Translations under genes and position numbers: made by a program
Source: Bradyrhizobium betae
Lineage (GTDB): Bacteria > Pseudomonadota > Alphaproteobacteria > Rhizobiales > Xanthobacteraceae
Assembly: GCF_004123905.1 (NCBI RefSeq)
Contig: NZ_MZXW01000015.1
Location: 124,001 to 188,000 of the forward strand
Length of the DNA: 64,000 nt
Direction of reading: 5' to 3'
Notes under the pieces: model-generated
Told to the model about the DNA's origin: nothing
Databases searched by the model: none
Seen by the model: the letters and a program-made list of their open reading frames with translations, nothing else
Part shown: in pieces, positions 15,268-21,977 of the stretch
How positions within the stretch are numbered: position 1 is the stretch's first letter
Layout: every line of letters begins with the position of its first letter

Positions 15268-18200
15268 GTGTCGATCTACGTCGCATTGCACCACGTCACG
15301 CATTACAAATACGACCGTCCGATCGATCTTGGCCCGCAGACCATCCGCCTGCGGCCGGCGCCGCACACGCGCACGCCGATCCTGAGCTATTCGCTCAAGG
15401 TCACCCCGGCCAATCATTTCGTGAACTGGCAGCAGGACCCGCAGGGCAACTGGCTCGCACGCTATGTCTTCCCAGAGAAGACGACCGAGCTGAAATTCGA
15501 GGTCGATTTCACGGCGCAGATGACCGTGGTCAACCCGTTCGACTTCTTTGTCGAACCTTATGCGGATGCCTTTCCGTTTGAGTATTCGAAGGATTTGAAG
15601 ACCGAGCTCGCGCCGTATCTCGAGACCATCAAGCCTGATCGCCTGTTCGCAAAATTTCTCGACACAATCCCCCATGAGGCCCCGAACACCGTCAACTTCC
15701 TGGTCGATCTCAACCGCGAGCTCCAGAAGCACGTCCGTTATATCATCCGCATGGAGCCCGGCGTGCAGACGCCGGAGGAGACGCTGTCCTCCGGCGCCGG
15801 ATCGTGCCGCGACTCCGCCTGGCTCCTGATCCAGACCTTCCGCCATCTCGGACTCGCTGCCCGTTTCGTCTCCGGCTATCTGATCCAGATCCGTCCCGAC
15901 ATCGATCCGATCGAGGGACCGCCGGAGGTCGAGAACGATTTCACCGATCTGCACGCCTGGGCCGAGGTCTATCTGCCGGGCGCAGGCTGGATCGGCTTTG
16001 ACGCGACCTCCGGCATGCTCGCGGGCGAGGGCCACGTCCCGGTGGCCGCCACGCCGCATTATCGCTCGGCTGCGCCGATCTCAGGCGGCGCCGGCTTTGC
16101 CGAGGTCGAGTTCGAGTTCGACATGAGCGTGAAGCGCATCCGCGAGGCGCCGCGCATCACAAAGCCGTTCTCCGACGAGTCCTGGACGCGGCTCAACGAT
16201 CTCGGCGAGCAGGTCGATGGCGATCTCGCCGCGCAGGATGTCCGGCTCACGATGGGGGGCGAGCCGACCTTCGTCTCGGTCGACGATCTCGAAGCAGCCG
16301 AATGGAACACCGCGGCCGTCGGTCCGACCAAGCGCGCGCTTGGTGACGATCTGATCCGCCGCCTACACACGCGCTTCGCGCCGGGCGGGCTGCTGCATTA
16401 CGGCGAGGGCAAATGGTATCCCGGCGAAAGCCTGCCGCGCTGGGCCTTTGGCCTGTACTGGCGCAAGGACGGCGTGCCGATCTGGAAGAATACCGATCTG
16501 ATCGCCAAGATCGAAAATCCGCGGCGCGCCGAGGTCAAGGACGCCCGGGCGTTCGTGGAGGGCACCGCGGTGCGGCTCGGGCTCGATCCCGGCTACATCA
16601 TCCCGGCCTATGAGGACACCGCCTACTGGCTCCACAAGGAGGCCGAGCTTCCCGTCAACGTCGATCCTACCGACTCCAAATTAGCTGATCCGGAAGCGCG
16701 CGCGCGCATGGCGCGGGTGTTCGACGAGGGGCTGAGCACGCCGCGGGGGTTCGTGCTGCCGGTGCAGCGCTGGAACGCACCGCCGCGTTGGCGCAGTGAG
16801 CGCTGGCAACTCCGGCGCAATCATCTGTTTTTGATGCCGGGCGATTCACCGCTGGGCTTGCGGTTGCCGATCGGCTCGCTCGGCCATATCCCGCCCAACC
16901 AATATCCCTACATCGTCGAACAGGACCCGATGGAGGCCCGCGGCAAGCTGCCGGTATTCAGCCTTCCGGCGCGTCCGGAATCGCCGCCGAAGGTCGAACC
17001 CGAGCATCTCAACACGTCCGTCCCCGTCCGCACCGCGATGTCGATCGAAGTCCGCCACGGCGTGCTCTGCGCCTTCATGCCGCCGGTCGAGCGCATCGAG
17101 GATTATCTCGAGCTGGTCGCGGCCCTCGAAGCGACTGCCGAAGAGATGCAGATTCAGGTCCACATCGAGGGCTACCCGCCGCCGTTCGATCCGCGCATCG
17201 AGGTGATCAAGGTGACGCCCGACCCTGGTGTCATCGAGGTCAACATCCAGCCGGCCAAGAGCTGGCGCGAGGCGGTCGACATCACCGTCGGGCTCTATGA
17301 GGACGCCGGCAAGACACGCCTCGGCGCCAACCGCTTCCTGGTCGACGGCCGCCACACCGGCACCGGCGGCGGCAATCATGTCGTGATCGGCGGCTCCAGC
17401 CCGCAGGACTCGCCGTTCCTGCGCCGGCCTGATCTCTTGAAGAGCCTCGTGCTGTACTGGCAGCGGCATCCGTCGCTGTCCTATTTCTTCTCGGGTCTTT
17501 TCATCGGCCCGACCAGCCAGGCGCCGCGCATCGACGAAGCGCGCCATGACAGCATCTACGAGCTCGAGATCGCGCTCTCGCACGTGCCGCCGCCGGGCTA
17601 CCAGACGCCGCTGTGGCTGGTGGACCGGCTGTTCCGGCATCTGCTCGTCGACATCACCGGCAACACCCACCGCGCCGAGATCTGCATCGACAAGCTCTAT
17701 TCGCCCGACGGGACCACGGGCCGGCTCGGTCTCGTCGAATTCCGCGCGCTCGAAATGCCGCCCGATCCGCGCATGTCGCTGGCGCAGCAGCTGCTGATCC
17801 GCGCATTGATCGCAAAATTCTGGCGCGAGCCGCAGGCCGGCAAGTTCGTGCGCTGGGGCACCGCGCTGCATGACCGCTTCATGCTGCCGCATTTCATCTG
17901 GGAAGATTTTCAGGACGTGCTCTCCGAGCTGAAGCAATCCGGCTATCCGTTCGATCCCGAATGGTATCTGGCCCAGCTCGAATTCCGCTTCCCCGCCTTT
18001 GGCCGCATCCATCATGGCGGCGTGACGCTGGAACTGCGGCAGGCGCTGGAGCCCTGGCATGTGCTCGGCGAGGAAGGCTCGGCCGGCGGCACCGTGCGCT
18101 ATGTCGACAGCTCGGTCGAGCGGCTCCAGGTGAAGGCGGAGGGCTTCGTCGAGGGCCGCCACATCATCACCTGCAATGGCCGCCGCCTGCCGATGACCTC

Positions 18201-18537
18201 GACCGGCCGCTCGGGCGAAGCCGTGGCCGCCGTCCGCTTCAAGGCCTGGCAGCCGGCCTCCGGCCTGCACCCGACCATTCCGGTCCACGCGCCCCTGACC
18301 TTCGACCTGATCGACACCTGGAACGGCCGCTCGCTCGGCGGCTGCGTTTACCACGTCGCCCATCCCGGCGGCCGCAGCTACGAGACCAAGCCGGTCAACA
18401 CCTATGAGGCCGAGGCCCGGCGGCTGGCGCGCTTCCAGGACCACGGTCATACGCCGGGTCCGATGCAGCCGCCGCCCGAGGAACGCACAAATGAGTTTCC
18501 GCTGACCCTCGACTTGCGGACCCCGCTCCTGCAATGA
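15268..18537 (+). CDS. Transglutaminase-like protease with C-terminal DUF2126
   Basis: A 1089-residue cytoplasmic protein. An N-terminal transglutaminase leader (LHHVTHYKYDRP, residues 1-80) precedes a transglutaminase core with the triad Cys180 (GAGSCRDSAW), His229 (LHAWAEVY) and Asp245 (GFDATSG). From about residue 300 to the end it is a DUF2126 region (LTMGGEPTFVSVDD; GKWYPGESLPRWAF; RTGTGGGNHVV-type GTGGGNHVVIGG; FRALEMPP). The GTG at 15268 was chosen because the family starts with I/YVALHHVTHY; no ATG is suitable. It is the first of three genes with the ATP-grasp/alpha-E protein and a second transglutaminase. Comparative genomics groups such genes as a predicted peptide ligation and cleavage system; the biochemical role is not established. 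Confidence 0.9.
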   Translation: MSIYVALHHVTHYKYDRPIDLGPQTIRLRPAPHTRTPILSYSLKVTPANHFVNWQQDPQGNWLARYVFPEKTTELKFEVDFTAQMTVVNPFDFFVEPYADAFPFEYSKDLKTELAPYLETIKPDRLFAKFLDTIPHEAPNTVNFLVDLNRELQKHVRYIIRMEPGVQTPEETLSSGAGSCRDSAWLLIQTFRHLGLAARFVSGYLIQIRPDIDPIEGPPEVENDFTDLHAWAEVYLPGAGWIGFDATSGMLAGEGHVPVAATPHYRSAAPISGGAGFAEVEFEFDMSVKRIREAPRITKPFSDESWTRLNDLGEQVDGDLAAQDVRLTMGGEPTFVSVDDLEAAEWNTAAVGPTKRALGDDLIRRLHTRFAPGGLLHYGEGKWYPGESLPRWAFGLYWRKDGVPIWKNTDLIAKIENPRRAEVKDARAFVEGTAVRLGLDPGYIIPAYEDTAYWLHKEAELPVNVDPTDSKLADPEARARMARVFDEGLSTPRGFVLPVQRWNAPPRWRSERWQLRRNHLFLMPGDSPLGLRLPIGSLGHIPPNQYPYIVEQDPMEARGKLPVFSLPARPESPPKVEPEHLNTSVPVRTAMSIEVRHGVLCAFMPPVERIEDYLELVAALEATAEEMQIQVHIEGYPPPFDPRIEVIKVTPDPGVIEVNIQPAKSWREAVDITVGLYEDAGKTRLGANRFLVDGRHTGTGGGNHVVIGGSSPQDSPFLRRPDLLKSLVLYWQRHPSLSYFFSGLFIGPTSQAPRIDEARHDSIYELEIALSHVPPPGYQTPLWLVDRLFRHLLVDITGNTHRAEICIDKLYSPDGTTGRLGLVEFRALEMPPDPRMSLAQQLLIRALIAKFWREPQAGKFVRWGTALHDRFMLPHFIWEDFQDVLSELKQSGYPFDPEWYLAQLEFRFPAFGRIHHGGVTLELRQALEPWHVLGEEGSAGGTVRYVDSSVERLQVKAEGFVEGRHIITCNGRRLPMTSTGRSGEAVAAVRFKAWQPASGLHPTIPVHAPLTFDLIDTWNGRSLGGCVYHVAHPGGRSYETKPVNTYEAEARRLARFQDHGHTPGPMQPPPEERTNEFPLTLDLRTPLLQ

Positions 18538-21102: not shown

Positions 21103-21977
21103 TCTACGACATCCGGCACGTCACGACTTATGAATATGAGAGCCCGGTCAGCTTCGCCCGCTGCACGCTGCGGCTGGAGCCGAGAGGCGGCAATGGCCAG
21201 GAGCTGATCTCGCACCATGTCGAGATTCGTCCGCGTCCGGCCGAGCGCCATGTCCGGCGCGACTTCTTCGGTACGCTGACCGAGAGCGTGGTGATTGAGG
21301 CCGCGCATCGCACTTTGCGCATCGATTCACGTTCGCGTGTCTCGATCTCGCGCAAGCCGCCCGCGCGCGACGCTGCAAGCCCGTCCTGGGAAAGTATCCG
21401 CGATATCGCGTTCGAGGCGACGAGCCTCGGGCCGTCCTCGCCGGTCGGCTACGTCTTTGCGAGCCCGCTGGTCCCGGTGCTGCGTCCGGTCAGCGCTTAT
21501 GCAGCCGCGAGCTTTGCCTCCGGCGCCGGCATCCTCGCCGGCGCCGTCGATCTGATGCATCGCATCCGCACCGAATTCCGCTACGATCCCAAGGCTACCG
21601 TGATCTCGACGCCTCTCAACGAGGTCTTCGACAAGCGCCACGGCGTCTGTCAGGATTTTGCCCACGTGATGATCGCGGGCCTGCGCGGGCTCGGTCTGCC
21701 TGCGGCCTATGTCAGCGGCTATCTGCGCACCATTCCGCCGGCGGGGCAGCCGCGTTTGCAAGGCGCCGATGCCACCCATGCCTGGGTGTCGCTGTGGTGC
21801 GGGACGGAGCTTGGCTGGATCGATTTCGATCCGACCAACGATCTCCTCGTCGCCAACGACCATATCGTGCTCGCGGTGGCGCGCGACTTTTCCGACGTCT
21901 CGCCGGTCGATGGCATCATCGTCGGTTCGCCGAAGCAGAAGCTTGGCGTCGCCGTGGACGTGCTGCTGGTGGAGTGA
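21099..21977 (+). CDS. Transglutaminase-like cysteine peptidase family protein
   Basis: A 292-residue protein with a transglutaminase N-terminal beta region (YDIRHVTTYEYESPVSFARC) and core domain. The triad is visible as Cys184 (HGVCQDFAHVM), His227 (ATHAWVSLW) and Asp244 (WIDFDPTND). The GTG start overlaps the previous stop (GTGA), so it is translationally coupled to the ATP-grasp/alpha-E gene. Bacterial members act as peptidases or amidotransferases. It is the second transglutaminase of this three-gene set and lacks DUF2126. The closing RDFSDVSPVDGIIVG is typical of the family. Confidence 0.92.
   Translation: MIYDIRHVTTYEYESPVSFARCTLRLEPRGGNGQELISHHVEIRPRPAERHVRRDFFGTLTESVVIEAAHRTLRIDSRSRVSISRKPPARDAASPSWESIRDIAFEATSLGPSSPVGYVFASPLVPVLRPVSAYAAASFASGAGILAGAVDLMHRIRTEFRYDPKATVISTPLNEVFDKRHGVCQDFAHVMIAGLRGLGLPAAYVSGYLRTIPPAGQPRLQGADATHAWVSLWCGTELGWIDFDPTNDLLVANDHIVLAVARDFSDVSPVDGIIVGSPKQKLGVAVDVLLVE

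Follow-up and report, generated by a model that had tools for sequence, protein, structure and literature searches.

What does a set of three genes that joins an apparent ATP-dependent ligase to two transglutaminases do, and does it act alone? The question is raised by a locus of Bradyrhizobium betae within a window of 64,000 nucleotides, the whole stretch of DNA analysed (G000:C45:124001-188000; genome of 8.6 Mb in 57 contigs). The set encodes, all on the forward strand, a transglutaminase-DUF2126 protein (TG-DUF2126; 15268-18537, GTG start, 1089 amino acids), a circularly permuted ATP-grasp domain fused to an alpha-E domain (18565-21102, 845 amino acids) and a second transglutaminase-like protein (21099-21977, 292 amino acids), the last two genes overlapping by 4 bases. 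The original prediction, made from the DNA letters, had given these identities, coordinates and overlap, all reproduced here by Pfam matches and gene coordinates, and had described the set as a self-contained ligase plus two hydrolases. Our best reading is that the set is not self-contained and that its association is with an intact unfused ATP-grasp/alpha-E pair, not with the proteasome-like protein Anbu.

The ATP-grasp half of the fusion is a likely pseudo-ligase

Pfam divides the fusion into CP_ATPgrasp_2 (residues 107-486) and Alpha-E (residues 534-829). The ATP-grasp fold is present in the first half (18694..20091, +), the predicted pseudo-ligase, but six polar residues, putative ATP and metal residues among them, are missing: E234, N236, D394, K395, D502 and N534 occur in 0/106 fused but 78/78 unfused sequences (a length filter removed one of 107 fused sequences and seven of 86 unfused pieces; one of the remaining 79, L188, turned out to be a contig-cut fusion and was excluded). 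Where unfused relatives have E-D-N, the window fusion has G193-D194-R195 (19141..19149, +), and E398 stands where they carry lysine. The closest solved structure of this half, 3n6x, a putative glutathionylspermidine synthase from Methylobacillus flagellatus, carries the LEDN, VVK, GGYG, DLRPF and NSSQGGG residues in the alignment, whereas the fusion lacks them. Identity to the unfused ATP-grasp of the same genome is 30%. Since it lacks residues that are invariant in its closest relatives, the ATP-grasp half is likely dead, a conserved pseudo-ligase as far as sequence can tell; the original prediction had itself named such a loss as one of the results that would refute it. The alpha-E domain (20164..21051, +, PF04168) retains its ER motif (E550-R551), both residues being invariant in 50/50 aligned fusions.

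The DUF2126 half is the predicted intact ligase

TG-DUF2126 matches Bact_transglu_N, Transglut_core and DUF2126 (1334 bits) and belongs over its full length to the DUF2126 transglutaminase-ligase family (55-61% identity to 49 homologues in the alignment), for which a transglutaminase plus a carboxylate-amine ligase have been predicted (excerpts of PMC2588565). The DUF2126 half (16099..18519, +) is predicted to adopt the glutamine-synthetase fold, and the 16 motif residues chosen as candidates are all invariant in 118/118 sequences (two of 120 were left out). This half, overlooked in the original prediction, is a second predicted ligase and, from its sequence and structure model, the one predicted to be intact; it is likely the working ligase of the set. 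In one locus (L106, G053:C41) the DUF2126 gene is interrupted by TAG and reads as two pieces.

The transglutaminase-like half (15268..16053, +) has the triad C180/H229/D245, invariant in 118/118 sequences. The second transglutaminase (Bact_transglu_N and Transglut_core in Pfam) has C184/H227/D244, intact in 95/98 loci, the three misses being cut or split genes. Both proteins are predicted transglutaminase-like cysteine enzymes by their Cys-His-Asp triads, which the original prediction had noted. The same genome holds two more adjacent transglutaminase-like gene pairs without ATP-grasp or alpha-E (L010:6798-8552 on contig C7; L011:5034-6932 on C1).

A complete Anbu operon lies on another contig

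On contig C55 (locus L009) the genome holds another alpha-E, which is unfused. There an unfused ATP-grasp gene (7801-9450) is followed by genes for alpha-E (9455-10399), a transglutaminase (10507-11355; 28% identical to the second transglutaminase of the window), an acyl-CoA dehydrogenase (11505-12704) and a last protein (13248-14006) that matches the solved Anbu structures 5loy (E 1.2e-81), 5nyj and 5nyf, so that Anbu is present in this genome. A Pfam proteasome search of the genome had not picked up this Anbu, for which the original prediction had suggested looking elsewhere in the genome. Its statement that no Anbu gene is seen at the locus holds (no match in window positions 1-40000) but does not extend to the genome. 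The window set is itself no Anbu operon, as it has no Anbu alongside and its ATP-grasp and alpha-E form a single 845-residue protein; its proposed kinship with Anbu-type sets is borne out by homologous ATP-grasp, alpha-E and transglutaminase.

The set accompanies the unfused pair across genomes

Two collections were compared: 120 genomes drawn from the phylum, with all 40 DUF2126 loci fetched and annotated, and the best 80 loci of a longer list from a scan of GTDB genomes for DUF2126. In the first, DUF2126 is found in 40 genomes and alpha-E in 69. Fusion and transglutaminase accompany DUF2126 in 34 of the 40 loci; a contig end truncates three others, and three (G036, G064, G076) truly lack the fusion. 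Among the best 80 GTDB loci, 65 have both in the fetched flanks, six, on short contig ends, have only the fusion and nine have neither (seven of them short); for five of these nine (L153, L162, L166, L172, L173) the genome holds a long fused copy at another place, and the remaining four are cut contigs. The three-gene arrangement is far beyond chance, and the co-conservation on which the original prediction depended is strong.

An unfused alpha-E is present in 40/40 DUF2126 genomes (the G107 copy at a contig edge) and in 29/80 others, with no DUF2126 genome lacking one among the 120 sampled (Fisher P 2.3e-13 by genome for the unfused form and 6.5e-7 by genus for any alpha-E, both ignoring ancestry). 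A whole-genome profile search of the best 80 GTDB genomes finds the unfused ATP-grasp at full length in 76 (32/33 genomes with none in the flank, 44/47 of the rest) and in pieces in four: split over contigs in G142, over two frames in G172, and as contig-cut pieces only, classed by score or too short to be classed, in G182 and G189. The LEDN, GGYG and NSSQGGG motifs lie in a single frame in 30/30 unfused copies from the fetched loci. Anbu is optional, since 23/40 DUF2126 genomes carry it. It adjoins TG-DUF2126 in 11/40 sample loci (L074, L077, L078, L086, L100-L106), unlike in the window.

A likely link to nitrogen limitation

Sites resembling the sigma-54 promoter (9 or more of 11 positions within 400 bases upstream) are enriched before DUF2126 genes (45/120, 5.7 expected) and before unfused ATP-grasp genes or pieces (46/86, 4.1 expected), and 9/107 fusions have one (6.0 expected); expectation comes from a simple two-base block shuffle, and divergent neighbours may share one site. 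The Anbu operon of this genome has such a site (10/11), and excerpts of PMC13207237 list, for Bradyrhizobium, a CP_ATPgrasp gene that is preceded by a predicted sigma-54 site. According to excerpts of PMC5491218, genes for DUF404/407, DUF403, a transglutaminase and a ‘large transglutaminase’, the last of which we infer to be DUF2126, are down 6.0- to 9.4-fold in a Burkholderia cenocepacia ntrC mutant. In Pseudomonas putida PP_2686-2688 are up 11-15-fold under nitrogen limitation (first strain column, excerpts of PMC7801951). The process served by the set is likely tied to nitrogen starvation.

Proposed mechanism and alternatives

We lean towards reading the set as satellite to the ATP-grasp/alpha-E pair of the Anbu type. 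DUF2126 would be the working ligase of the set, the fused ATP-grasp a dead binding partner, and the unfused pair the agent of a second ligation in the same pathway. When nitrogen is limiting, the unfused ATP-grasp and its alpha-E would couple an amine to a carboxylate. DUF2126, by the chemistry of glutamine synthetase and gamma-glutamylcysteine synthetase, would turn a carboxylate into an acyl phosphate and add another amide, while the pseudo-ATP-grasp/alpha-E fusion might serve to position either the substrate or the live partner. The two transglutaminase-like enzymes would then cleave or exchange the amide and Anbu, if present, would trim.

Several points weigh against this reading. Foldseek matches of DUF2126 to glutamine synthetases reach only E ~0.14 and worse, on a structure model with a mean pLDDT of 79. 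The fused ATP-grasp retains K442 (VVK) in 48/106 sequences and D221, R224, R504 and D543 in most, so residual nucleotide binding may persist, and the assignment of E-x-N to the metal site comes from a profile alignment that is weak (hhalign probability 0.7%, P 0.079). Fusion and DUF2126 are not strictly bound, as three DUF2126 genomes lack the fusion and two genomes (G024, G114) have the fusion without DUF2126, and the nested occurrence counts take no account of shared ancestry. The DUF2126 gene of the window has no good sigma-54-like site within 400 bases upstream (best 7/11), and the Anbu-like PP_2685 of P. putida stands at only 1.12 where its three neighbours reach 11-15 (the same column of PMC7801951).

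Alternatively, the set of three genes could make one product and the unfused pair another, the two co-occurring only through a shared life style and regulator. They lie on separate contigs in this genome, with a strong sigma-54-like site only at the Anbu operon, and in 47/80 best GTDB loci the unfused ATP-grasp and alpha-E are not both in the fetched flank. We nevertheless think this unlikely, as set and pair share one stretch in 25/40 sample and 33/80 best GTDB loci, form a single NtrC-dependent cluster in B. cenocepacia, and no DUF2126 genome examined was seen without the unfused partner.

In another view the fused ATP-grasp is still alive, its active site having been remodelled for a different chemistry, of which a D-R-T-Q-A-P-S-G motif of its own would be the mark. 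Positions G203, W378 and G380 are indeed conserved in 106/106 fusions (R195 in 85/106, Q197 in 80/106), and the motif is seen again in one Actinomycetota and one Acidobacteriota record. That none of the listed acidic and amide residues is left and that divergence has been faster (mean tree distance 2.97 for fused against 1.64 for unfused sequences, taxa unmatched) speaks rather for an active site gone out of use, and this view appears improbable. A self-contained system, with the fused ATP-grasp as ligase and the two transglutaminases as hydrolases, appears very unlikely because E-x-N and four more polar residues are missing from all 106 fusions, the window fusion has E398 for lysine, an intact unfused relative, whole or in pieces, occurs in every genome examined, and DUF2126 is the predicted intact ligase.

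A bolder extension of the satellite reading, which we hold tentatively and with considerable doubt, is that bacteria widely possess a machine that conjugates amides in two stages during nitrogen starvation. A conserved pseudo-ATP-grasp/alpha-E subunit would assemble in it with a glutamine-synthetase-like ligase and with an ATP-grasp/alpha-E pair that is live, much as a pseudo-kinase does with its kinase. Anbu would be only an optional trimmer, and its long-sought substrate would therefore be the product of this machine.

Neighbouring genes

The nearest matches of the locus proteins are from Bradyrhizobium (94-97% identity). Just 5' of the set lies a galactarate/altronate dehydratase-like gene (13565-15088) and directly 3' a gene for an HD-domain protein of the Npun_R2479 kind (22101-23018; NF045583, 268 bits, under the cut-off), a kind found close to the set in only three annotated loci.

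Comparison with known systems

Iyer et al. (2009) reportedly predicted a peptide-tagging system with a permuted ATP-grasp, a permuted glutamine-synthetase-like ligase, an NTN hydrolase and an alpha-helical domain. All these parts are present in this genome, spread over two loci, and the ATP-grasp of the window locus is likely dead. For M. tuberculosis, we take Rv2569c to be the transglutaminase-like gene of the corresponding set; its product would then be a cysteine enzyme. The title of PMC11081392 calls Rv2569c a serine protease.

The transglutaminase plus carboxylate-amine ligase family exemplified by M. tuberculosis Rv2566 (excerpts of PMC2588565) is Pfam DUF2126, with the same domain order and predicted glutamine-synthetase-fold ligase; at the level of domain order and predicted fold we found no difference. 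The Anbu operon, as excerpts of PMC6376114 and PMC5666114 describe it, consists of ATP-grasp, alpha-E, transglutaminase and Anbu, with structures solved and no substrate since 2008-2017. The window set resembles it in its homologous ATP-grasp, alpha-E and transglutaminase and differs in the fusion of the first two, the lost ATP-grasp residues, the added DUF2126 and the lack of Anbu in the locus. If the unfused pair serves DUF2126 with or without Anbu, the ligase pair is the common denominator and its product can be looked for in strains without Anbu. A pseudo-ligase that Proteobacteria, and several other phyla at the level of single loci, have retained would also explain failed ligase assays if the wrong protein was taken.

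The rlo operon of P. aeruginosa, which encodes an ATP-grasp, an inactive transglutaminase and a retropepsin (excerpts of PMC12239564), is alike in logic only, in that an ATP-grasp ligase is combined with a protease and a degenerate partner; its inactive part is the transglutaminase rather than the ATP-grasp, and the families are others. The class of system was predicted earlier, in 2008-2009, and what is likely new here, from sequence comparison, is the conserved pseudo-ligase ATP-grasp, DUF2126 as the predicted live ligase, and the association with the unfused pair and not with Anbu.
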